A program made the position numbers and the translations under genes. The notes under the pieces are model-generated. The model was not told the origin of the DNA. It did no database searches and worked only from the letters and a program-made list of their open reading frames with translations. Below, in pieces: positions 5,470-54,084 of a stretch of 64,000 nucleotides of DNA. The stretch is from positions 1 to 64,000 of the forward strand of contig NXFV01000242.1 in the NCBI GenBank assembly GCA_002803225.1, written 5' to 3'. The stretch is from Gamarada debralockiae (Eukaryota > Ascomycota > Leotiomycetes > Helotiales > Hyphodiscaceae). The first letter of the stretch is position 1. Each line of letters begins with the position of its first letter.

Positions 5470-7183
5470 TTGGAGTTACCTGCAGTCCCACGTTTAGCTT
5501 CCCATAGAGAGAAAAAGGTCAAATGACAAAATTGCCCCCACTTTTGGAAAGGTACATACGTCAGTGGTCAAGAAACGTATAAGCTCAGGTCACAGCCTTG
5601 CGAAGGTTAAGTACCCGATACAGGGGCACGTCCACCTGACGTAATTCTGCCAAAAAAGTCACATAACTCATCTTCGGGAGCATTCATTGCAGCTCTAGGA
5701 TCGCAGCGCATGCTCTCTCCAACATCAGTCATACACATCGGTATCTATGTAGGAGCGTGGTGGTTGATCGTCTCTCGTCGCGTGGTACAAGTATACCAAG
5801 GAATATCCACCGAATAGGAGAGGTTATGCCGGATGGGGAGCTATGCGGGAATTTGCAGCAGCTTGAAAGCCAGTTTTCAATGCTTTTTGGTCGAATCTGG
5901 GCGCATTTGGCTGTCTCTGGAAACAAAAGATACGCGAGTGCATTCAAATCACCAATTCAAAGACCCAGCGGGGATTGTCTGCATATAAGGGAATCTCACG
6001 TCTGCACTTTGTGTTCAAAACTTATCCATTCAATTCCGTTTATCCCGCGAAAGAGCCTCAACATCGGAGTGTGGCACCCAAATGCAAATTAGTAGCCACA
6101 TTGCATCCGAAAGAGACGACTCGCATGAACTATAGGCCGTTTGTGCACCCCCTTCACAACGATTCTGGCAAGTGCCCGCAGCCCTCGACAATCATAACCT
6201 ATCGTAGAATGAGAGGACCGTTCATGCCGTGCTGAGATCCAGATCTGGTGGTTGCTAATTACTTTGCTTTCTTATCCCGCCTCTCTTCCCATAGTACACG
6301 TTCCTGGTAATGTCAATACGGGCATTTGCTTGCATCATCTCATATGATACTTAAATCTTCTTTCCTCGATCAGCTTCAGTTCTCTATCCTTCCAATCTGC
6401 CCAATGCCTCTTCGATCAATCCGATGTGGCCTCGGAGAGGACCTTCCAACTCATCCCTGTGTCACGAGTAAGGATGTTGTTTTGAAACAGCGGGGTTGAC
6501 GAGGTGGGGTTGAGCGCCTCTATCACAATGAAATCCATTGTCCAATGATATCCCGGTGGCCGAGTCAGTTTAGGTGACTATTTTGAAACACCTAACCGCG
6601 GGTCGTCATCCTTGATGACTGAGATACCATCGAGACCTGAAATTGATTCAGTGCACTGAATTGGTGCCACCGAATGGAATGCACCGACCATTCTTGCTTC
6701 GTGATCTCTAAAAAGCTCTACCATGCGAGAACTGAGCGTACGTGGAGCCTGTAATCACGAGAAGAGTTGTGAGATTGAGAGCTCCTAAGACTGCAGGGTT
6801 TCGAAGAATGGACAAGAAAGACATAATTAAGAGAACTAGATGGTACTAAAAGAATCATAATAATTAAAGAAATATACAATAACTTACAAACTTACAAGTA
6901 CTTGATTGATCTTGCTAGTAGACGTATTCCTCCAGGTCGATGACATCAACGAATGAAAGTATGCCGAGCCGTTTTTGACGCGGTTCGCGCAGACGCGTGC
7001 TCTCAAAGAAACAACGACCTTCGAAAACAACTCCAATATCAACACGACCGCGCGAATGGAACCATTGGCTTGAAGAGCTCGCGGGGAATGCGCAAGGATT
7101 GAAATTCACCTATCGCGATGAAGAACACAACCTAACGAATCGACGCCCGACGACAGTGTCCCTCCCCAACCACGATAACCACG
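5470..7183. other. Intergenic, includes 5' region of polymerase eta
   Basis: No gene is supported over about 1.7 kb. The stretch 6830-6900 is AT-rich. The last 100 bases should carry the promoter and 5' UTR of the polymerase gene that starts at 7184. Confidence 0.45.
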
Positions 7184-9261
7184 ATGTCCTCCTCCCAACC
7201 TTTCCAGCCTTCTTCGCCGCTCTCTACTGCAGGCGCGCATAGAAAGAAGTCTCGATTCACATACAGACATCTGGCACAGCTTGCTCTCTCGTCAACGAGC
7301 TGCCCTCTCCGTGTCATCGCCCATGTTGACCTTGATGCGTTTTATGCGCAATGCGAAATGGTGAGGTTGGGTGTCGCAGAGGACCAACCTCTAGCAGTGC
7401 AGCAATGGTAGGCATCATATCCTTCCACTTGCCGTACTCTGAAAGGCAGCTAACTCAGAGAAGGAACGGGCTCATCGCCATCAACTATCCATCGAGGAAG
7501 TTCGGTCTTTCGAGAATGATCACACCCAATGAGGCCAAGAAGCTCTGCCCAGACATCATACTGCAGCATGTGGCTACATGGAGAGAGGGCGACGAGAAGT
7601 GGGCATATCATGAAGATGCTGCCAAGAGTATTGCAACACACAAGGTCTCTCTTGACCCGTACCGCCTCGAATCTCGGAAAATTCTGGCTTGCATCAAAGA
7701 TGCTCTGCCAGCGAACTTGCAAAAGGTCGAGAAAGCCTCCATCGACGAGGTTTTCATGGATCTGTCGGCCCAAGTTCATTCAATATTATTGGAAAGATTC
7801 CCCAGCTTGTCTGGCCCTCCTCCAGACGACGATCCTATGGAGAACCTCCCAAGACCTCCTACAACAGTTCTTGACTGGCAGGCCGATGCATTAGTCGATC
7901 TGGATGCCGACCAGACTGAAGACGAGGACCCTGACTGGGACGATATGGCGATTTTAATAGGGTCGGAGATTATCAGGTCCGTCCGTGCCGCTGTACGAAA
8001 CAAGCTTAAGTATACATGTTCTGGTGGTGTTGCCCAAAACAAAATGCTCTCGAAGTTGGGATCTGCTCACAAGAAGCCAAATCAGCAGACGGTCATCAGG
8101 AATCGGGCTGTCCAGCACTTTCTTTCGAACTTCAAATTCAACAAAATACGAGGCTTGGGAGGAAAGCTGGGAGATCAAATCACGTCAGCCTACAATACGG
8201 ATACAGTCAAGGACCTGCTGCCAATTCCTGTGGAGCAACTGAAGCAGAAGCTAGGAGACGACACTGGTATATGGGTCTACCAGGTGATCCGTGGACAAGA
8301 TACCAGTGAAGTGAACTCCCGGACCGCGATTAAAAGCATGTTAAGTGCGAAATCCTTTACGACGAGCATAAACACGCCCGAGCAAGCAAATCGGTGGCTG
8401 CGTATCTTTGTTGCGGATATCTACTCGCGATTGGTGGAAGAAGGGGTGCTTGAGAACAAGAGAAGACCGAAAACCATGAATCTACATCACCGCCAGGGTG
8501 GCCATACGAGGTCTCGCCAGGCCCCTATACCTCAAGGACGAAAAATAGATGAGACGACACTCTTTGATCTTGCAAAGACTCTAATGGGTCAGGTCATATT
8601 GGAAGGCCGAGTATGGCCGTGTTCGAACATCTCCCTCAGTGTTGGTGGGTTTGAGGATGGAACATCTGGCAATAGGGGAATTGGGGCTTTCTTGGCGAAA
8701 GGTGACAATGCAAAGGCACTGCAAACCAGTTCAAAAGAGTCGAGTGCGGCCGACGTTGGCCAAGAAAGACCCGATAAACGCCGACGCCTTGAACCCTCAA
8801 CTGGCATCCAGAGGTTTTTCATTAAGACAGAGAACGTGAACGAGCATGATGATGATTTCGGCGCTCAATTACCCGGCGATTCTGTTTTGGCTGAAGGAGA
8901 GTATGCAAATAAGGGAACTTTTGACAAGGCAGCACCAACTTTGCCTTACGAGAACGAGAATGAGGCAACCAAATCTCGCGAGATAAATAGCGTCAATTCT
9001 GGTCTATCGGCCCTCCATCAACGACAAATTAGTGAATATACATGCACTCGATGCAACCACTCCATGGAATCATCCGATGCACTGCAAAGCCACCAAGATT
9101 GGCACTTTGCGAAAGACCTCCATGATGAGGATCGTGGAAGACCAAATCTACCGACCAAGGCCCCTCCGACAACCGGTAGCAAAAAGGCTGCGAAAAATTC
9201 AAATAACAAGACCGGACTCGGTAAACCAGAGAAAGGACAGAGCAGGTTGGCATTTGGATGA
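7184..9261 (+). CDS. rad30: DNA polymerase eta (translesion Y-family polymerase)
   Basis: Copies past UV photoproducts and other blocking lesions at stalled replication forks. Exons 7184-7407 and 7464-9261 (intron GTAGGC...AAG) give 673 residues. The catalytic carboxylates are visible: HVDLDAFYAQ (Asp49, Asp51) and KASIDEVFMDLS (Asp169, Glu170). NYPSRKFGL follows the intron and is the finger region. FNKIRGLGGKLG is the thumb helix-hairpin-helix, and KSMLSAKSFTTSINT opens the little finger. Near residue 600 CTRCNHSMESSDALQSHQDWH is a ubiquitin-binding zinc finger (UBZ, C2H2), and the chain ends in QSRLAFG, a short PCNA-binding (PIP-like) peptide. The ATG at 7184 is the first in frame and leaves about 40 residues before the palm, as is usual in fungi. 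The gene looks intact. Confidence 0.95.
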
Positions 9262-12590: not shown

Positions 12591-15500
12591 GATTTCCCAT
12601 CAGGTTCCATTGGCATATTTGTATTCAGCGATCCACGGGCATACATCATTTTCTGGCGTTTTTTTCATTACTTATTCCCCTTCTCTGGGTATCCCGGCTT
12701 GTCTGGACCAAAAATTGCCTTGGATATCTGCTGCTTATACATGGAATCAGACCATAATATGATGGGCACTTCCCAGTCTTCAATCAAGACGTTGTTGAGG
12801 TGCCAAGAAGAATGCACTCATACCGGAGTTGGAGGTCCAGATCTTCGTCCCTAGGTTGGATCCGCATATTGTCCTGCACTAGACCTGTTTATGAGACTGG
12901 ATCGAAGACTGGATATACGATCGAGATGTTACCATGCCGAGATGAGATAAGGACCCTCGCACATTCCAGTGCGGCTGCTTTCATGCCATTCACGAGATCT
13001 GGGTCCATTGGGAGAAAGGAGAGGATATTCATTTGCAAGGTTAATACAGTTGGCGATTGCATCAGTGATGCTTGCATACGCAGAGGCCGTTGGGGCGCTC
13101 CATCATGACATTGCGTGTTTTGTTGCTGTTTACATCTTGGATACCACCCTCATGAGCCTGCTGCCTGGATCCATCGTTACCAATTTGGGTTTCGCCGTCC
13201 GGTTTCTTTCTTCATTCCGCTTTCGGGTCTTTGGGTGGGTATTTGAATAGAGAGTTCGGGTTCGATCCAGGCAGCATGGCAGAGGCGTTTTGTGTATATA
13301 CTCTGCCCACATCAAAGGAGCACTTTCACCTTCAGATCCGCATCCTGTCCTTTAGGAACTTTCCATTAGGAGATCGCAACATCCTCAGGATAGGATCTCA
13401 GTACTGATATTTAGCTCTGGCTGTGTGTTGACAGCAGGTACAGTTACACTTCCCTGGGAATGGACTCCTACCATGGACAGGAAATACAGTCCTTGGACTA
13501 CCCGGATTTATCCAGTGGACTTCCCTTGGATTTCATATCAGGTGTCAAGCGTCCCACCAAGTTCATTGTTTGCGATCAAGGCCAGACCAGGGGATACATC
13601 AGCAAAATCAAAATTTCATTGGCCATATTGTGATTGCTTCCTGTCGGCTAACAAAGACACCCGTCACCCGACTCAGAGCTCCATCTGCCGGAAGGAATCC
13701 AAGGACATCCTTCCGAAACCCTCATCAAGGCACTTCAACACCGAGGCAGCCGCCTTGAATCATCTAGATCACAGAACAGAGGATTCGCATCAAAATACAT
13801 CTGGTCTTTTGCAGGTAATTCCCCGTTCTGTCTAGCACTCGTTGATTCGACCCTTCTGGTTCAAACAACCCGTGGTCTTGATTCCAATGAGCCTTGAGGC
13901 CATCAGGCTCGGACGGTTACCAGATCATCTGACCTTGACCCAGGGTGGAAATCTCCAAAGAGCCTGGAACCCATCAGGCTCGGAACCCAGGGCCGCCAAC
14001 ATACGCTCACCCTTTGAGGACCTCCGCACCCCAGGCAGCCGTTATTCGAGCAGGCTTATCCGCCAGTACCTCGCTGACGGCGCAATGTTTTCAAGTACCA
14101 AACCAAGGCTTCCTTCATTGAGCCTCCATTCCGGTTCATCCTCCCATTTCATTACTTTATTATACTACCAAGGGACCTGGAAACTGACTTCTTTGTGTAG
14201 GTCCCAACCCATCATATATTTAGGAACTAGGTACCTGACGAACCCCTTGCTGGAGCTGGAGTGTATGTTGGTCTGGTTGATGCAGAAAAGATGATGAGAA
14301 GGAAAAATCGTAGTGGCAGGAGACTCTCCACAATCAATACATTTATCCACACAACCCTCTTATTCAAATCTCACAATGTGATGTTTATGTCTACCACTTG
14401 AAATCTGTAAGCCGGCTGGAATTGGTGGCTGTCGATCTTCGCATTCCAATATACCATCCTGGTTTTATTTCTCACCTCGCCCACCATAATGATTGGCCTC
14501 AATCTACCCTAACATAATAAGTAGAGCTACAAGAAGAAATGATTCCCCCAACCGGACACTGTCAAAACTCTATACAAGGGCATCAAAGCGACGCCCTGTC
14601 AGCATCTATCTGCCGTGCCTTCTCCTTAGCCCCCCAAATAAAAATAACCCCCGATGCACAACATTAGCCCGTCCCCCAATCCTTCGAAATCCTTTAGGAG
14701 AAAAAATGTTCCCGCGCTCGCTGAGCCGCTGACACCTTCATAAACGAATCCAACATTAACTGTCTGACGACGTAGATACATACCATTTTCAATGCTCCCG
14801 CAGTTCTGTAAGATCGGCCAGATATCATACATGCACCCCTGTAGTATTAAAACAGTTCATCGAATAAATGAGTCAGATCACGGAGCAAAGACCGGAATGT
14901 GAGGCTCCAGGGTGATCAAACGCATCCGAATTCGTTCGGATTCAAGATGAGATCATTGCCGGGGTACAATACTTTCGCTGAGAGGATCCTCTCGCTCTGA
15001 TCACTGCTAATAAAGTACAGATTGCCAGGGTAAGACATAACATGAATCAGTGAATGGGTGTGTAGGATACCAAAGTACAATTAAATTGATACTGTGGACA
15101 TATCGTACGAGACTCGAGGTCAAGTTCCAAGTTAGCAGAACTCAACACCGAGATGCATCATTCAGAGAGGTCTTGCGCGTCCCCTCTTATTCCTTGACCA
15201 AAAGGCTTCTTTTGCCTCACGTACAGTGCACACACCGATAAAGTGCCAACTTTTTGATGTCTTACGCGGCCGTTGGGGAAAGAGGCTGCGATTCATGGCG
15301 GGCAGATCTGTCAAGAAATAAATAGAAAAACTGGAGATGACTGTATGCAGTTCCAACTGATACATTGACAATTTATATTTAGTTGCTGCTTCACAGCTGA
15401 TCTTTGCTGTGGAGGCTCAGTCGTCATTTTTACGGCTGACGATCACTAACATTTTGTTGCCATTTGAGAATCGGATCCACTTGTTTCAGCTTCTTCGGTA

Positions 15501-15978
15501 CGCAAAGCCACCGAACCCAGCAAGAACATTGGACCCCCCGCTGCTGGAATTACAGAAAGGAATACGAATCCGGACAGGAGACGCCATCAGGTTACTTCAG
15601 CAGAGAAGAAGCAAGCATATCTTGGGGCCCAAATCGCATTAATCCTCCAACCTCCTCCCCTCTCAAGTCCGGCCTCTTTTGCAACAGCACAGCGCCTTCG
15701 AGTGCCATATCAGGTCACGGCATATACCCTGGCTTCCCGCGGTCTTCAATCATCCCGACGAACGCGAAACCAAGCACAGGCTGCACAGCCTTCTCTTGGC
15801 AGCGCTTCGTTATATCCAAACTTTTTGCAAGGACAACAACGACGCTAGCTACATTGGAAGGAAGCCACGATACCGTTCCTTCCTTCATCAATTATTTCAC
15901 ACAAAGGAGCATTGGATATTGTTTGCTGTCATTTGCAATCAATCTGGCTGACAGCGACAACGCTGTCAATTGCCCATC
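12591..15978. other. Long intergenic region, no supported gene
   Basis: About 3.4 kb without a convincing coding region. It contains a 12-bp perfect inverted repeat (13160-13171 and 13264-13275) and a 14-bp direct repeat (13900-13913 and 13971-13984). The last few hundred bases are presumably the promoter of the mannosyltransferase gene. Confidence 0.5.
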
Positions 15979-32614: not shown

Positions 32615-35600
32615 ATGGCTAGCCTGTTTTCAAGAGAGCAAGCCAACGAGCACATACGAGAAATTCGTCGACGGAAAGGCGTGGACAATCTAGACGGGCA
32701 GGAATCTGACAATATGCGCGATCTAGATCGAACACTAAACATGTGAGTATCAATCAAAATAGATCTTCTCAGGAATATATTAATAAAGCGTCCTAGACTT
32801 TCCGATCAGCTCTACGAGAAGGAGACGCACTTTCTTCTTGAACTGATCCAGAATGCTGACGACAACACTTTTGACGAAGCAACTCCATCTATTTCGTTCA
32901 CCTGCAATAGCTGCAATGGCCAATGGACTCTCGAAATTGAATGTAATGAGGTTGGATTTAAGCAAGAAAACGTCGAAGCACTATGTCGCATTGGAGACAG
33001 CACGAAGAGAGCCGATCAGCGAACCCATGGGTTCATCGGAGAGAAAGGAATCGGCTTTAAGTCTGTATTCAAGGTTGCGAATATTGTTCGGATCCATTCA
33101 AAGGCATACTCATTCATGCTCGACAGGAGAAAAAGGCTTGGCATGATTGCGCCTATTGTTGATAGATCACCTTGGCAAGAAGCGCGAGACGATCGGCCTG
33201 GAACCCATATGCTGCTGGAGCTTAACAGCGAGTCAGAATCTCGAATCATCATCGGCGAGCTTATTAAATTAGAGCCACAACTTCTAATATTCTTGCGCAA
33301 TATATCCAAACTACGTATCACCACGCCTGCCCGAAAACTTCAATTCAAAATTGAGAAGATAGTACAGGATCAGACGTTCGACGGGATGGAAACTGCAACG
33401 TTGACTAGCACGTCCACCCGCCTGTCCACAAGGTCCTCATCAGATCGCCAAACAACGGTGAGAAAGTATATGATCATTCGCTACAAAGAGAATCTGCTTC
33501 CCACAGATGCCAGAAGAGTCAACGTCAGAGAGACTGAGGTTGTTCTGGCTTTCCCCGTCGACAGCAATGGGCGACCAGTGCTGCAGAGTCAACAAACATA
33601 TGCGTATCTACCTATAAACGACTACGGGTTCAATGTGAGTCATCTCAAATTACTTTGGCTGATGCCGATCGCTGCTAACGTGTCTTTAAAGTATCTCATT
33701 CAAGGAGACTTCCTATTAGTGGCCAACAGGGAGAGTGTCGATTCCTCAGAATGGAATGACGAAGTCCTAAAGGCTGTTCTTACAGCTTTTTTGTCCAAAG
33801 CTGTTCCTCGGTTCAACAAAATTCGAAGCGATCGATCTAGCGGCCTCCGTTACACATGGCCCCTGTATCTTAGAGATGGAGGAGGGTCCAACGCATTCTG
33901 GCGCAGACTCAACAGATGGATTTTTGCTCACCTAGCGACAGCCGAGGCTGTAGAGTCGCAATACGAAGGTCAACTCTGCCGCCCTGGAACCTTATACTAC
34001 ATTCCGCCAGATTATAGATCACGGGAAAGGCCATTGGTTGAAGATGACACCAGCGCCAAATGCCATTTATCTCTTGCATACGATGCTACGGGCGCTGATA
34101 TTCTGCCAATTTTATACCGAATGGGCGTCAAAAACATGGGAATCCACGATTTGGTGGGGGAACTGAGAGAACTCATTGCGAAAAATGGCATTTCATACCT
34201 CGAAACCCGATCAAGACGTTGGCATGCAAAGATTGCAGAACTTCTCCGTCGTCAAATCAATAGATCATGGATTGCTGATATTCCCCTAATACCACTACGT
34301 GATGGAAGATGGGTCCCGTTCGATGATGGGCACATTTTTCTAGAGGAGGACACATCGAACTCAACGATACCCGGGGGATTAGACATCCGCTTGGTTCAAG
34401 CCGAAGCATGTCTGGATCCGAGTCGAAAGGCTTTTTTCCAATGGCTTGGTATTAGAAAGTGTGACCGAGCTGAAGTCTGCCGGATGATCCTGGAACGCTA
34501 CTCCCCTCTCCAGCAAAGAACACTAGACGATGCAGTCGACGATGTCATCTATCTGTTCCAAACGCCTCACTCAGCCAATATCCCTTCCATTCGACATCTT
34601 TTACTCATGGAAGCGTCACCGACTTCATATTTCAAGAAGGGCCACGATCTTTATGTGGAAGAACCTGATAAAATATCTATCATAAGCAAGTTTGCTGACA
34701 ATCCTGACAGTAACATGAACCTTCTGCATCCTTCATATATCGCCAAAGCCTGCGCAGTAGGAAATGAGTCAGAGTTTGTGAGCTGGATATGCTCCAGCCT
34801 CGGTGTATCCACGAAACCACGTCTTGTTGACCTCCGGCAGAGGTTGACTCCGGAATTCCGTTTCCTCTATGACAATGCAAGCAAAGATTTATTACTTCTA
34901 CTTCGAGAGAGCTGGGATAATTATGCTTCTCAGCTTGAACTAAAGGATTCAAAATTGAATAAAGCGCTTTCGGAGATGAAGGTATTGTGTACAGATGGCG
35001 AGATGCACCACCTAGACCAAACGGTCTTGCCACGTGAAGTTTTAATAGCTGCAGGTCCGAACCTGTTTTTTGTCGATATACCTGATGCAGTCGATCCTCG
35101 TTGGGACAAACTTACCCATCTCCGCGTTCTCTGTTCGAGATGCGTGGACCTATACCGGTACCAGTTGAGGGCTCTCGCACTACTTCCCGTAAACGATACC
35201 ACAACAAAAGCAGCCACGGAGGCAGCATATGCCGGACTACAATCGTCCATGCATAGGCCTAGCGGCAGAGTCAAGTAAGTGAGAGAGTAAAGCTTTCTAC
35301 AAAGATAAACCTAATTCATATCGTTTAGAACGGATTTCGAAACTTATCGACTTGTATTCAACCCAGAACTCAATCGATGGGTGGATATATCCGAATGTGT
35401 ATGGAGCGGGCCCAGGTTGAGCATGGTATTTGACCTCAGTTCTCAATATCCGGAATATCAGCTGCTATTCCAACGCTATTTGGAGCTTGGAAACGTGGAC
35501 GCCAATCACATTGTCAGGGAATTACGTGCAACAGGCAGAACTCAGATTGAGAGATTGAAAGAACTGTTGGTTCTGCTTAGCAAGTATCTCAAAGATCCAT

Positions 35601-45350: not shown

Positions 45351-47025
45351 TCAATTTGGGAAGTTGTTTAGGAATTCGGTTCCATCCTCGTCAGACCTTC
45401 CATAGTTAAAAGAGTATGGAAGATGCTGTTCAATTGGGCGCTCCATGAGCTGATGAGCAGGCGTTGGCGTACTTTGGCGATTTGACATATGCGACGGAAC
45501 TCGGTGTGACTGCGGTGATATCGTGGTACCTGCGGATATATGCGAGGAGTCCAACACTATCTGTGGCAACGCCACCTGATTCTCGGGATAATGTAGCTGA
45601 GTTCTTGAGAGCTCCACCGCATGTTGCGAACCGATAATTGGCCCCATGATGTACTGGGAAGGGTTTTCGTTGGACCATGGCTCAGATGTACGTTGAGAGG
45701 ATCCATGTGCAAGGTCATTCATTCCCGGAAAAGAAGAGTCGAAGTATGCACAGGGACCTGAGATTGTAGGGCGGGTCTGAATGCCCACGGGAATGGGTTC
45801 GGCTCGAGATGTGATCATCTGCGGCAAAGCGTTGTGAGGGGTGCTTTCGTTGACCCATGCTTCAGATGGATTTTCAACGGGTCCATTTGCAAAGTCACCA
45901 ATTCCCGCTAAAGGACGTTCGACATACCCAGCTGCACTAAGGGACGCTGCTTGAGCTTGGAGGGCGACACGGACGGCAGTCTCGAGATGTCTTCGTGTCT
46001 CCTCATCAATCCGCACAGTACCGCGTTGGATATACTGGTCCACAATAGTGTTATACGTTGATAAAATCGCATCAATATGCAATGCAGGATCGATTGGCCG
46101 AATCTGAGCATCTTCCACCCCTGGGAAGGATTGTGTTAGCTGTTGGACGAGGACTTGTAAGTAGTGATAAAACTCACATGGAGTCCCTGGCCGAGGACTG
46201 CTTGGAAAGAGAACATCCCAAATTTCATACCACTTTTCAATATCGTGTTTCTCCTTCTCATTCCCAGAGCCCAACCCCCGTTTTGCGATAAACAACTTCT
46301 CAATGAGTTCCCATTGACCCTCATTAATCCCTTCCTTAAGATCATCAGATCCTTTTTGGCAAGGGGGTTCCTCTAGTCGATGCTCTGTTAGTTCATTGCG
46401 ATCGTCCAAAATTTTGTAACACCTATCGCACTGAGCCGGTCGATGAGTAGATTTGTAGTGTTCTCTATATGAATACATTTAGCTTCGAGTTTCACTGGCT
46501 TGCGACAGATAAATTTCAGTGAATCACTTACTTAAGCCGTCGGAACTCTTGAGCACTTGGACTGAGACATACACGGAACTTCAGGTTATTCTCGGAGCAG
46601 TACGAGTAGCCATATCGTCCGGGATCTTTCTTGTGAAAATGACAGGCATAGCTTAGACGCTGGGAGGTACGTGGATTCGATCTCCTCTGTCTTTTTGAGC
46701 CTACTTGTCCGCCCTGCTCCTCGGATCCAGCGCGCTTGCGCCCACGACTTGGTCGGAGCGAGCCACCATAAGAGCTCTCGGCGCCTATGGGAAATGATGG
46801 CACTGTAGCATCCTTACCATATGTAGGACCTCCGGTAGATCCATCAGATGGAGAAACTGCACGTATTCCGATGTCTGTTCCGAACTGAAGCCGGAATTGA
46901 GCCGTTATCTTTGGTATGAGGAGAGCAGCAAGCTCAAGGTCACTGCTGAAGATCGAGAATAGATCGGACTCGAGAACAGATATCATCTCGTCCGTTAGTT
47001 CTATGGTAGCTTCGCTGCCGGTCAT
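45351..47025 (-). CDS. C2H2-type zinc-finger protein next to the NLR
   Basis: Exons 46532-47025 and 45351-46464, about 535 residues from the first in-frame ATG (47025). A Ser/Lys/Arg-rich region with a basic patch (GRKRAGSEEQGGQVGSKRQR, a likely nuclear signal) precedes divergent zinc fingers: YACHFHKKDPGRYGYSYC, then RRLKEHYKSTHRPAQCDRCY and DRNELTEHRLEEPPC. The second part crosses the intron in frame (AA|A). After that come GINEGQWELIEKLF and KWYEIWDVLFPSSPRPGTP, as in many fungal proteins with this finger pair, then a disordered tail. The frame stays open for 52 codons upstream of 47025 without an ATG, reaching close to the NLR stop, so it may begin with an unrecognised exon or be the 3' part of the NLR gene. 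Its target is unknown. Confidence 0.7.
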
Positions 47026-47271
47026 ATCATCTTCAGACTCAGTATCCCCATCATCAGGCTCTATTTCGCTTTCCGTACTGGTACGATGACTGAAAGGTCC
47101 GGTAAATACCGTAGACTCTCGGGTTGATACTGGCGAATGCGTAGACTCCGCGACCAACCTGGAAGAAGCGGAAGCGGACAAAACAGCAGTATCTGGTGGC
47201 TATATTCGAGTAAGGAACTGTTTCTCTATGATTTATTTAGCACATTGTCAGTATGCCAGCAATTCCGGTAC

Positions 47272-50200
47272 TCACGATGGAAAGGGTTCATCTTTTCCGT
47301 CAGGTCCAGAGGTCCCATAGCTCACGGCCTCTTGCCAGGTTTTCACGCGCGCCTCGATTGGGTTGCCATAGAAGCGAAACTGGGCGTTGATGTCGGCTCC
47401 AGCCAAGCCAGCTTCGAGCAGCAGCCTGACGATGTCTGTCTTCACTTCTGTCTTCTCATCTCCTAATAAGACCGTTAGGAGCGCAGAGCCGTGACTTCCC
47501 ACTTGGGCGTGAACATTGGCCCCGGCCTTGAGGAGCAGCTTCAGGGTATCTATTTTCTCTGCTGCATTCTTGTCTCCTGCCAAGGCAGCCTGGATTGTGG
47601 AGCCGTAGCTTCCCCCAGGGGCATTCACATCCGCCCCGGCTTCTATCAGCAGCTCGACAATGTCCGCGTGCCCTCCGAGCGAGGCAGCCTCGAGAGCACT
47701 ACCATAAAAGCCACCTTGAGCGTTTGCGTTAGCACCACATGCCAACAGCAGCCGGACGGTCTCTGTGCATCCTCCGATAGAGGCCCCCTGGAGTGCATTG
47801 CCGTAGAAGCCACCTTGCTCGTTGACTTGTGCACCTCGTTGCAATAGCAGCCGGACGATGTTTACGTCTGTTCTGAGCGAGGCTGCCTGGAGAGCAGGAC
47901 AGTAGTGCTTATCAACTGGTACTCGCGCATTAACATTAGCCCCGGTTGAGAGTAATAGCTGGACGATGTCCAGACTCGCTCCGAGCGAGGCCGCCAGGAG
48001 TGCCTCGTCAAATTCATCAGCATGCGCGCCGTGGTCCAATAAGACTTTGATGGTCTCAACATGGCCATTTACAGCGGCAGAGTGTAGAGCTGTGCGTCTA
48101 GTCTTATTCTTTGCCCCCATATCAGCGCCAGCATCGAGGAGCATTTTGACCAAAGACGTGTGACCGAACCGAGCTGCATAATGTAGTGCTTGATTCCCGG
48201 CATCATCTTGTGCAAGTACGTTCGATTGGTACTCCCATAGAAGACTTGTGACAACACTTCGAAGATTTGAAGAAGATGCAAGGTGCAGTAGCGTCGAACC
48301 AGTTTGGGGCCTCTTTGCGCTCCAAAGACTTACCCCTGAGGAGAACTTCATCCACGTCCAAAAAGTTGGCCACACTGGGCCACCGAGTTGCTGTATAAGA
48401 TCCTGCTGTAAAACCCCAAGATCTTCGGCCAATTCTGCATGCAGAAACCACGAGTCCATAGCGTAGACCAAAAAAGGATACAGTTCCCGACGTGGAAACT
48501 TTTCCTTAGCTGGAATAGCAGAGTGTCGTAAAACGTCAACGGTTGATGGAAAGCCGGAAAAGGAAAGTAGATGTTTGAGGCATAACCTGGCGAGTCGGTC
48601 ATGACTTCGGCCGGTAATTATGTCCTTCGACAGTTCGGTCGACTGCTTGTGGTACTGAGACAGAACATCACTTGAACTTAAAGTTAGCCACTTTAGACCA
48701 TCTGAGAGAAGGAAGTCTTTAACAGACTGGTGGATGAACTGCACAATGGTCGTAGACTTGTAGTGCTTGACCTCGACTAAACCAGCAGATAGGTTGATAA
48801 CTCGTGTCTCTGTACTGCTATCTGTGTCGTGGCAGGCCCTTGCCTTTTTGCGGTCATATCGTGATTTGAAGACACTACATGTATCATCTTCCACGGCCAT
48901 TGCCTGGTGCAGCTCTGCTAGCGAGAGAGGTCTTGTCGCAAATAGAACCCACTGCATTAGCTGTAGCGATGCTGTCAAGTTCCAGGGGTCAAGGTCCGTT
49001 GTGAAAATGTATTGGTAGAGGGCACTCAGTCCTTGTGGCAGTTGGCGTAGTAGTATTTCGATGTATGAGAAAGGGTCTCCTCCCCTGACCAATTTGATGA
49101 TCAGTGGTACGGCTAGACGCGCCCATTGGAATACTCCGGAAGAGCCCCGCACAATGGAGTCTTGGAGTACTTCATATTCACCAAGCCGAAATCCCGCCAA
49201 TTCCCGTGTTGAAAGTCTGGAGTTAAACTCTTGCTTAACATACTTCGCAATATCATCTTGGTTTTCGTCCTCAACGTAGACCTCTAGACTAGAGGTAGCA
49301 GCTATTTCCGAACGATAACGACTCGAGAGACAGATTTTCACATTGCCGCTTCCGGTCGAGATCTTGTCGCTGATGTTGTAGAAATAGAAGGCGAGTTCAT
49401 CTTCAACTTCGCATGCAACTTCATCTAAAGCGTCCACAAAAATGTATACCGTCCACGATCTTGCAACACGCACAATAGCGTTCGCGAAAAGATCTTCTAA
49501 CTCCTTGCGTTGCCACTCCCACTCGATCCCAGCTTTGCCAAATGCTTGTTTCTCTTGGAAGGCAGCTCGGAGTGGCAAGCGTACTGATGGAACCAGGGTG
49601 CATAATTGATACAACAGAGATCGAAACATGCCGATTGGAGTCTTCTGCAACGTGGCTCCACGTCCATGGAAGAAGAAGTCGAGAAATAGGCTTCGCTTCG
49701 AGAGTTGCGAGGGTGGTCTTTCGCGGAGTGCTTGATAAATGAAGGCCATCAAGGTCGACTTCCCTGAGCCTGGGTTTCCTACTATCCATAGCAGTTTGTT
49801 TTCCTGGCCTCTCCATGCTACATAGGACTCGTGTTCCAGTATCCACTCGCATGTCTGTAAATAGGGTCGGTTTATCTCTTGCCGGCGATAGTTAAGCTCA
49901 GGAAAGGCGAGAGACCGAAGACAATCTTATACTGGTCAGCATTACAACCATCAGCAGGTGGTGGATAGTAGGAAAAGTCATACCAAGTTCGTCGGATGGT
50001 GCCGTTCCGCCACGGTCATCAGTCTTCTCACGAGCTTTAGAGTCAGGCAGCTCTGCTATCGTCTGTTGTGCATTGGCTGAGGGGTTTCCATTGCTCAATT
50101 CATCGTTCAGTGCTGTATCCGTAGACGATTTGGAAGTGGGAGAAATAGTTGGCAGGAGGCATTCTAAAGCGAAATTTCTTAGTTCCATCGAAGGAGAAGG

Positions 50201-53200
50201 TGGAAGCTCCCCTGGAGCCGTGAAATATGTGCCTTGGTGAGCCTCAACGGGAGGGGAGTCTATGCTGGAAGCAAGCATTGATCGAAAACTAGAGAAAACT
50301 TGATCCTGGCAGTCTCGAATCATGTCAGGTAATAAACGTCTCAAAGCGTCTTCCATGATTCGCGTCCCATTCCGTGCAGCCCGTTCAAGGGCACTTTCAA
50401 TTAATACTGGCAGCTCTCGCCTGGAGTATTCTTCATACGCCGCCAATTGTTGAGAATTCGCTGATGAGACCCTGCCAACTACGCTGACTTCCTCGGTCAC
50501 AGGTTCAAAATCTTAATCCAATATTAGCAACTGTACGTGAAGCATGAAGAATGTGAGGATTTTGACGAGAGGCTTAAAAACTGAGTAGATAATGGTCGAA
50601 AATCTTGACGGAAAACGGGACTTACAGGGCGTAGGTATGTCTCTATTTCCGAAGAGCATTTCACTTCCAGAAACGTCTGAAGATAAGGTCGACAGAGTAG
50701 TATCAGCGGCTGTGGTTGGATCAATTGTAGAATTAGATGGAGGTGGAACTGAAAGAGTATATTCAACAGCAGTGGTTGGATTGGAATCTGTCTCTTTATT
50801 GTCAATGAGCCGTTTTGCATCGTCCGAGTGTTTCTCTTGGATAATGAGTAAAGTATTTCTGTTGATATCGAATTGGGGTGTGGAGATAATCTGATGCAAG
50901 ATTCCATGTTCTTGGATAAATGGCCTCCCAAAAATGATATCAAATTTTTCGTTGAGTACCCTGACGGACATTTGAACGAATTTATTCAGACCAATCTTTG
51001 AACATTTGACCTGTATCACCACGAATGTCTTTGGAGTAACCCTTTCGCAGTTCAAGGCGGCAAAGCTTTTGATCTCGTGTCGGGGCAAAGGCATTTCCTT
51101 GAAGCCGTACTGATGCGCAACCTCCTTACTGATAAACGAAGAGCTAGCGCCCGTATCGATGACAGCATTGACAGCTTGAGACTCTCCTTCTGAATCCCGT
51201 ATTACAACTGGCGCATTTGATAAGAGCTTCATGAAGTCTGCTTCGCCTTCCTCACTATATTCTGCGCCTGATTCAATCGCGGATGAGGCCGGTTCTGGGA
51301 TGTCATTTTCAGCAATGGCAGTCGTCCCGTCAATCTTGCTGTCGACTTCATCACCAACGGTAATTTGCTCTGTTTTAAGGCCTATCAGAGGGCTTATAGA
51401 GTCTCCTTCTTTAGCCACTTCATCGTTAAGTGGCTCGATCGTACGTAAGGCTGATGGTTGAGAGTCATTTCCAGCGGTATCAGGTGTCCCTCCAACCTCG
51501 TCTTCTCCGCTATGAATAATAGCGCTTTGCTCTATGGGACCGCTTGCAAGGAACACGGTTGACTGCCCGCCCTGCCTTTCAAGGATATGTTCTGGGACTG
51601 GTTCGATAGCTGGGGTGGCAGGCGCTTGAATAAATTTTTTCGTGTTGTTAAAAGCCCCGTCAATCTTAAAGTTCCCACTGTAATCAATATCACGACCACC
51701 AGTATGATACGCCCGTACTCCGCCGTTTATTTGACCACTCATCAATTCCCTATCTACCCGCCTAGCCGCTTCATCAACCGTTGTTTTCATCGATGAGGAG
51801 GGGGAGTACATTTCGATCCCGCTGTCGACATGAATCCTTGGTGTACAGTAACTCGTTTCGTCCAAATCGTACCGTTTGTTGATTGTGTCTGTTGTACTAC
51901 GCTCGGAACAGCATCGGTCTAGTCCTTGGTTCTCTTGTTTTTCGGAAGGGAGCGGTTTACGCTTTGTAGAGTTGGTAGCTGGCTGTCCAGTAATGATAGC
52001 GCAATTCCTAGTTGCATCAACACTGCGCGATCGTGGATTATTTCGTGGTTGTTCGTCAAGGTCGATAGCGAAGTGGCCGTCCTTCTCTAGTAGTTGCTCC
52101 CAAGGGAATGGCCTCGCAAAGCTGGTACGTTCACATCGGGGCGGAACATGGAGGCCGTATCCTAAAGAGTTGGCTTCGCGAGTTTTTTGATCTGCAACCT
52201 CAACCCGCCGGCCACATATTGCTCTTGTTCCGAGATTCCCCCACAGGGCAATAGTCCTTTGCAGTAACGGCCAACGCGACTGGACATGTTTGCCGACAAA
52301 CCCAATGATGTATACCATAGCGATCATTAAAAAAATGGTAAGAGCAAAAGATCGTGGAGTCGGATCGAAGGGTATAATATCTGATTGCATGCCGAAAATC
52401 GCAGCTGGGAACGCAATAGGATACAGCGCCTAGGATAACGAGTTAGGCATATGTCTCAGGAGATTCAAGAAGATATACTGAGACGTTTAACTCAGAGGAA
52501 ACCTCATTCTGGTCGGCTGCTTCTTTGCTTTCAAGATACAAGCGAAGCTCTAACTATTGCTCATTTATATTGTCAGCCTATCTTCTTCTCCTTTATTACC
52601 TAGTCAACGGCTTTGCAATCATTCGCAACCCCCCCAAAAAAGGAAAAGAATTAAAGGTCAACTTACTTTGCTTGAGAAGCCAGAACAGCTATTTTCCAAC
52701 CTCGCAATCTTTTTTTGGTTCTCCTGCAGTTCCCGAAAGGCAGCCTTGATAGTACGGAGCGATCCCTGAGCGGGGAGAGATATAGGTGCCATATCGGTAT
52801 TACGAAAGTAGCCTATCTCTTCGTTTGCAAAAGAGTTCCATGCATCGACTGTGGCGGAGAGAACGGCGCTAAGCCGGCGCAAAAGGGCCATTGTTTTATG
52901 CGTCCAGTCGAAAGCTTCTTTCATTTCTATGGCTCGCTCACGTGCAGTCTCAGAACGTTGAGTAAACTGATGTTGTTCTATCTAAATTATAGTCAGCAGA
53001 ATAGAACATGAAATAGAAATACCATCAGGACACTTTGGCATCTTACATATGTAGCTATACTCTGCTCCAGCTTATGAGCCAAGTCATCCCACTCCTTTCT
53101 CACTTGCCCTATCCTCACTTCAAACACTTTGAGCCAGTAATCCCTAGGTCTCCATATTGGGAAGTCTACCTCGAGTGCTCCAGCTGCAATTTGGTCGAAG

Positions 53201-54084
53201 AGAAGATCCTCAGAGGAACATTCGGCCAGGACACCATCTATTTCAGCATCAATAAAACCATAGCCGACCCACCGCCAGTCGTCAGATCCAGTAACGACAA
53301 CAGAGATCTGCGCCTCGTGGATGCCCCAAACTTCATTCTCTGTTGTTTTTGGGTCCTCTGGCTCGGAAGTGTATGTACTAGTATCTGAAATCTTCAGGAA
53401 TGATAGATCTGTCCAGCGTCTCTTAGGCTTTGTGTTGGGTTTCCCACCTCTGATAGGCTCCTCGACCGGGGGTGTTTCTTTCCTCAGAATGAAGAATGGG
53501 AGATGAAAGTCTAACTGGAAGGTTAGAGGCGCAGCCGGAATTTTGGCCCCAATTGATGCCTGAAATGCCAAATGTTTACATATAGCTTTTCTTAGCACAA
53601 GGGCCTGGCTCTGTGAGGCAGTAGCGGCAAGAGCGAAGATGCAGGCCGGGTTAAGGTCTGAAACATAAATCAGTCGCCTCGCTGCATCGGGTAAATTCTC
53701 ATGATGAAATCGTGGCTCCTTCAAGGCGCGATAGAGTCCCGTTGCAGTCAGAGGATTTGCATGGCGTCTTTCGTCTCCACGTCCTTTAAGCTCGAGTTCT
53801 GAACTACATTTTCTCTCGTCAAGCCACACCACTTCATGTCCTGCGGCACTAGTGCCTGCTTCTACATCAGAAAGGCTGACGCCACAGCAGAAATCTTTCC
53901 CGACATCGAACTCGCATCGAGGGGTAGTGTCTTCTGAGTCTCTGAAGAAGAGGTCGAGGTCGTCTCCATCGGCATTATTTTTCTTCTTTAATTCGATATA
54001 GGTCTCCTCGTCATGGATTTCCCGGCGTTTGGAAAATCCTGGGGCCCAACTGTTTTCGAAGCACACTTCCTGGTGTTCTCCCAT
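47272..54084 (-). CDS. CorA-like / retropepsin-like / NACHT / ankyrin fusion protein (NLR)
   Basis: Six exons: 53047-54084, 52667-52981, 52479-52553, 50626-52429, 49984-50511 and 47272-49925, about 2137 residues. Domains: a CorA-like cytosolic part (LIYVSDLNPACIFALAATAS, LDFHLPFFILR), coiled coil (about 340-470), and two membrane helices, the first ending FPAAIFGMQ (GMQ instead of GMN) and the second IFLMIAMVYIIGFVG (about 505-525). A long linker follows. The retropepsin-like domain has NAVIDTGASSSFIS (catalytic Asp about 901) and FDIIFGRPFIQEHGI. Then RELPVLIESALERAAR, NACHT Walker A GNPGSGKST (about 1303) and Walker B YIFVDALDEV (about 1418), and ankyrin repeats (about 1800-2110), several with the GGFYGNALQ-type spacer. 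STAND NTPases of this class act in non-self recognition and regulated cell death. The true start may be upstream: the frame is open and protein-like to about 54210 without an ATG. Confidence 0.78.

Follow-up and report, generated by a model that had tools for sequence, protein, structure and literature searches.

A probable chimeric fungal NLR gene joining a CorA-like membrane module and a retropepsin-like domain to a NACHT-ankyrin core

Introduction

A minus-strand gene at 54084-47272 of a 64,000-nucleotide stretch of DNA (the window) probably fuses a membrane module, a retropepsin-like domain and an NLR core in a single reading frame. The explanation that best covers the whole is a single chimeric NLR with a membrane-fixed retropepsin that would be activated by clustering, and we assign this reading a probability of roughly 45%. 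Its two parts differ in standing: the fusion itself is probably real, and clustering-activated protease function is an attractive reading that we infer from the predicted domains.

In the portions of the literature available, published fungal protease NLRs have domains of the serine (S8) or caspase-like (CHAT) type (PMC9815663, PMC12881547), so the gene, if read correctly, would add another catalytic class. It would also place an NLR permanently in the membrane and offer an induced-proximity mechanism that can be tested directly. In addition, the locus shows that introns of the same phase can let unrelated genes join into a receptor. The window belongs to a genome of 54.3 Mb in 1112 contigs, which we judge to be fungal from its gene content and gene structure, and the comparisons below were drawn from relatives inside this same genome.

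Overall gene model

The model has six exons, all on the minus strand, starts at an ATG chosen at 54084, and encodes 2137 residues with zero internal stops. Its domains follow in the order of a CorA-like two-helix membrane module, a long linker, a retropepsin-like domain, a short module, a NACHT-type NTPase and ankyrins. Introns 1 to 5 measure 65, 113, 49, 114 and 58 nt, and each is GT-AG. Support for introns 1-3 comes from CorA-like paralogs, for intron 4 from a C2H2-type family, and for intron 5 from an NLR on contig C66. Because introns 1 to 5 are backed by relatives in the same genome, the exons are probably joined in frame as modelled, making the gene a chimera of several families. It is likely that a single gene was assembled from a CorA-like gene, a retropepsin, a C2H2-type tail and an NLR core.

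In a Pfam search of the whole model, three families scored above cut-off: Asp_protease_2 (PF13650; 894-980, E 3e-7), NPHP3_N, a model related to NACHT (1277-1456, E 3e-33), and ankyrin (E 7.8e-35). NACHT PF05729 (E 2.9e-4; 21.1 bits against the required 26.7) and GPIID_WHD (E 0.0015) fell below cut-off, and CorA was absent from the Pfam results for the whole model. An earlier note on this DNA had placed the end of the CorA-like module and the retropepsin motif in one uninterrupted exon. This proves correct, as the peptides that it quoted share one minus-strand frame and 52429-50626 is free of stops in that frame.

CorA-like membrane part

Exon 1 (53047-54084) encodes an N-terminal domain common to CorA-like paralogs, with 60% identity to C1030 and 59% to C758; it has 32 matches over 14 contigs, the window included. 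Exon 2 (52667-52981) encodes the helical part of the module. Exon 3 (52479-52553) comprises 25 codons and has identical borders in C1030 and C758, the DNA giving LELHLNLEAKEAAVENG and LELRLHLEVKEAAVENG there versus LELRLYLESKEAADQNE here. Exon 4 (50626-52429) opens with a two-helix membrane hairpin (52292-52429) and continues through the long linker and the retropepsin-like domain to LFGNRDIPTP at its end. The first helix of the hairpin, FPAAIFGMQ (52411-52385), is weak, with a hydropathy peak of 1.25; the second, IFLMIAMVYIIGFVG (52336-52292), is strong and clearly hydrophobic, with a peak of 2.47.

We call this module "CorA-like" rather than CorA, a label that draws on marginal scores and on position. 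Pfam CorA appeared in three of five family members with a best E value of 0.058, and at a marginal E of 0.73 for this protein; no Pfam family exceeded its cut-off in the five members scanned. In a PDB profile search, 8 of 11 matches were named CorA (best E 0.2, covering the C-terminal part), and a further match, 2iub, was named as divalent cation transport-related. The GMN motif after the first helix is missing, being replaced by FGMQ here and by FSMQ in four aligned paralogs. The family of such membrane proteins is sizeable (C1030, C758, C48, C473, C453, C559, C131, C520 and others), and its exon structure is partly common.

The CorA-like gene now continues into the linker and the retropepsin-like domain, its usual ending probably lost, because the four paralogs measured terminate 65 to 115 residues past the membrane motif. 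A short stretch here, LGTRAICGRR, aligns with CGTRAV or LGTRAL in the C-terminal part of two of the four aligned paralogs (C1030, C131). In a fifth paralog, C453, the frame stays open for 85 residues past the membrane motif. The CorA-like end is separated from the retropepsin by 337 open codons, a run found in none of 20,000 shuffles and expected from base composition with P of about 4e-8. These open codons rule out the candidate explanation that the CorA-like part and the protease are separate genes.

Retropepsin-like domain

The retropepsin-like domain (50918-51178) carries the two motifs typical of clan AA (PF13650) proteins, a DTG and a second hydrophobic-Gly motif. The first lies in AVIDTGASSSF (51166-51134) and the second in FDIIFGRPF (50944-50918), both in the same exon 4 frame as the membrane peptides. 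When a 142-residue piece was searched alone, PF13650 matched above the Pfam curated cut-off (E 1.2e-7). Matches to PF13975, PF09668, PF08284 and PF00077 were all below cut-off, as was NCBIfam clan_AA_DTGF (E 9.4e-6). The DTG is intact, and its D and G are invariant in an alignment of nine domains, in which identity between ours and the other eight is 15-26%. What distinguishes our domain from other such proteins is that it is joined to an NLR.

Structural comparison gave less. A single-sequence model of the protease had a mean pLDDT of 43.7, and a fold search with it returned no match at E 0.001. A PDB profile built on the retropepsin alignment (A1) gave DDI1 proteins as top matches; these say little about this domain, because one row of that alignment, C814, itself resembles the DDI1 of the genome.

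At least 8 PF13650 matches were listed in the genome, along with NACHT matches (at least 88 and at least 83 in the two lists), and among the matches listed only this PF13650 domain shares a gene model with a NACHT. That the domain came recently from one of this genome's retroelements is unsupported, the sole match to the protease side elsewhere being a distant ORF on C37 (21%, E 3.5e-4). Scans of exon 4 against prokaryote genomes and viral contigs gave 33 and 3 pattern matches, respectively, and no relatives; they say little, because these collections are non-fungal.

Two other retropepsin-like loci were observed. On C175, a minus-strand ORF of 656 residues with such a domain (6983-7237) lies about 7.3 kb from a plus-strand NLR (14550-15602). 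By a rough estimate this spacing is not unusual and may be due to chance, given at least 8 and at least 88 listed matches in 54 Mb. On C134 (13797-17066), an ORF of at least 698 residues contains two tandem retropepsin-like domains and is a possible single-chain protease.

Intron 4 and the joining module

Between protease and NACHT sits a module of the C2H2-type family (50656-50279) that is interrupted by intron 4 (50512-50625). The intron is 114 nt long, reads GTAAGT...TTAAG and has phase 1. As proposed earlier, it joins exon 4 in frame to the segment leading into NACHT: the model stays open, and position and phase are kept in independent relatives, namely two genes on C126 and one on C558. 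The earlier proposal had overlooked that the joining piece derives from the C2H2-type family.

In the C126 pair and in C558, an exon ending in LFPN...PS(P/A) is followed by a phase-1 intron with a T/GTAAG donor and then by the matching tail; here, LFGNRDIPTP stands at T/GTAAG. This 11-residue end ranked best of 84,618 stop-free six-frame 11-mers in the window when compared with the three family ends (the C126 pair and C558, with C313 left out). Exon 5 (49984-50511) begins as the C2H2-family tail, including a YSRRELP module at about 50446-50279. Matches to exon 5 occur at four other places (a pair on C126, single ones on C558 and C313; best E 5.6e-12), and the tail module after the conserved intron matches the C126/C558 family with E values of 5.6e-12 and 6.3e-12. 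The fourth relative, C313, has the T/GTAAG donor and lacks the LF motif before it. A stop lies one codon upstream of the post-intron module in the module's own frame, so the module would be incomplete without exon 4.

In C126 and C558, the exons before the intron resemble zinc-finger exons of C2H2 type, which we take them to be; no Pfam match above cut-off was obtained for the C126 pieces. Such an exon is missing here, where just its last residues remain, following a retropepsin. We also considered that a retained intron 4 might supply a meaningful hydrophobic tail; when retained, the intron in a C126 gene likewise reads as a hydrophobic stretch.

Intron 5 and the NLR core

Intron 5 (49926-49983) is 58 nt long, reads GTATGA...TATAAG and has phase 1. 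Removing it leaves the reading frame open, in keeping with its original prediction. The closest NACHT-ankyrin relative, C66 (53%), has a pre-NACHT intron of equal length and phase. The intron follows ...GACGAACTTG here and ...GAAGATCTTG in C66. In an ungapped comparison, 32 of 58 intron positions are equal, and 20 of 20,000 shuffles that held the first six and last three bases fixed did as well. The tail matches and the C66 intron match together indicate that exon 5 resembles a C2H2-family tail at its start and the pre-NACHT exon of an NLR at its end, all in one open frame.

Exon 6 (47272-49925) encodes the NACHT/NPHP3_N domain (49857-49318), a winged-helix-like part (48960-48691, below cut-off) and ankyrin repeats (about 48300-47356), and ends in a stop. 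Walker A (GNPGSGKST) and Walker B (YIFVDALDE) are both intact, and the latter agrees with the published NACHT consensus as given in the excerpt available. A NACHT-type NTPase with both Walker motifs and C-terminal superstructure repeats, here ankyrin, are thus present, as in fungal NLRs. The predicted core of NACHT, winged helix and ankyrin is intact. The N-terminal part is an open, splice-supported fusion that falls outside the canonical fungal-NLR domain list as available to us in part.

Possible C-terminal continuation

The NLR stop is immediately followed, on the same strand, by a C2H2-type gene (45351-47199) that has no Pfam match; C824 and C740 carry relatives of it. A GTGAGT donor overlaps the stop of exon 6, and the chance that this downstream gene is in fact the end of the NLR gene falls only slightly short of even. 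Exon 6 would then be spliced to 47158, adding exons 7 and 8 (47158-46532 and 46464-45351), for a model of 2716 residues without stops whose C2H2-type end may be a sensor. Two of the four relatives elsewhere, C824 and C740, match the downstream ORF from residues 17 and 18, which is the predicted acceptor; the other two match from residues 46 and 71. Moreover, C824 and C740 each carry their own upstream Cys-rich ORF, for which the roughly 110 nt available here leave no room. Such endings have precedent, since the accessible part of a survey of Sordariales NLRs reports 57 with zinc fingers, 52 of them C-terminal and 34 of C2H2 type (PMC12258605).

However, exon 6 possesses its own stop, and the first AG past the likely branch point is a different one and out of frame. 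Upstream of the first ATG in the C2H2 ORF, the codon signal is also weak (0.019, a value reached by 232 of 1278 open shuffles), and the downstream exons have no Pfam match. The longer gene is compatible with the single-chimera explanation, which we retain below.

Proposed mechanism and alternatives

CorA proteins have a two-helix membrane module with both ends in the cytosol, and proteases of the retropepsin class require dimers. By analogy, the two-helix module would fix the receptor in the membrane with both of its ends cytosolic, and the ankyrins would sense a ligand. Clustering through NACHT might then unite retropepsin halves into dimers, switching on the protease beside the membrane. The active protease could cut a substrate near the membrane or release a portion of its own receptor, and defence or cell death would follow. 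A half-site aspartic protease suits NLR clustering because clustering supplies the dimerization.

Only tentatively do we propose, from domain content and order, that the protease may be an effector activated by proximity. The most specific version is rather unlikely in all its details: a NACHT wheel would force retropepsin dimerization at the membrane, as an aspartic-protease counterpart of caspase-activating NLR complexes, in an exon-joined gene perhaps equipped with a C2H2-type sensor end.

The retropepsin might instead be bait within an NLR, either as an integrated decoy or by sensing, in the manner of a substrate, proteases or protease inhibitors of foreign origin. In the available portion of one study, non-canonical domains of fungal NLRs are described as rare in many cases, with a decoy role argued for some, although the Sordariales decoy candidates named there were C-terminal (PMC12258605). 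Here the protease precedes NACHT, in the usual place of an effector, and its DTG is intact, which makes bait an unlikely role.

We regard as improbable a reading with two overlapping genes, in which a CorA-like/retropepsin fusion reads through intron 4 to a stop at 50513, and an NLR begins at ATG 50659 or later. Neither this ATG nor the possible C2H2-type continuation was recognized in the earlier note. The ATG is in frame and directly precedes LFGNRDIPTP, and the exon 4 ORF does stay open to 50513. In codon scores trained on 23 long ORFs from other loci (shadow frames not being filtered out), the model frame outscored the other five in 34 of 35 segments. It failed to do so at residues 1021-1080, next to ATG 50659, and the score at residues 661-720 is slightly negative, yet still the highest of the six frames. 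The ATG, the weak codon signal beside it and the C313 relative without an LF motif thus weaken the predicted single-gene model.

Nevertheless, a transcript running past 50625 would be carried by splicing into the NLR, because the donor there is strong and conserved. Three relatives have I or L where ATG 50659 encodes M, and the next in-frame ATGs (50356 onward) fall inside or after the conserved tail module. Finally, the protease and the LF motif share a stop-free frame over about 58 codons, which would occur by chance with a probability of about 0.07 if stops make up 4.5% of codons, times one third for the frame. Even with two genes, the CorA-retropepsin fusion would remain unusual.

Quite improbable is a third alternative, in which the CorA-like module is the effector, NLR clustering opens a cation path and the protease merely trims the receptor: CorA channels are pentamers of two-helix subunits and the plant ZAR1 resistosome, in the source material available, is a pentameric calcium channel, but GMN is lacking here (FGMQ) and the CorA homology is marginal.

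Relation to known NLRs

Four NLRs of the same genome (C66, C266, C143, C155) share the NACHT-ankyrin core of the chimeric gene, with 39-53% identity over the query, and C66 also shares intron 5. They differ upstream, where their hydrolase-like part, which by motif we take to be a sesB-type hydrolase, stands in place of the CorA-like, retropepsin and C2H2-family pieces. Pfam gave no match in the pieces of these four that were scanned.

Fungal protease NLRs of the S8 or CHAT type, linked to gasdermins, likewise carry a protease before the NLR core, according to the portions available (PMC9815663, PMC12881547); our gene differs in its aspartic (retropepsin-like) class and its membrane hairpin. 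No gasdermin match was noticed in a Pfam scan of 10 window ORFs, a scan not aimed at gasdermins. Aspergillus nidulans AN6960 combines WD, ankyrin and CorA-like Mg2+ transporter domains, and so shares the CorA-like and ankyrin parts with our gene; unlike here, neither NACHT nor a protease is named for it in the available part of the source (PMC5371717).

The available portions of the main texts of four papers (PMC9815663, PMC12258605, PMC4986451, PMC12881547) contain no relevant passage on CorA, aspartic proteases or retropepsins. In the partly accessible literature searched, serine and caspase-like protease NLRs are already published, and neither an aspartic-protease NLR nor the present combination was met; a similar case may hide among the 185 rare Sordariales NLR domains of a supplement. 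Fungal NLRs commonly carry rare extra domains, to judge from the part of one survey available (PMC12258605). This makes the architecture alone less surprising; how well a half-site protease suits clustering makes it more so.

Elsewhere in the window, an ORF of 843 residues (32747-35278) has a Sacsin domain match (Pfam SACS, E 5.8e-9).
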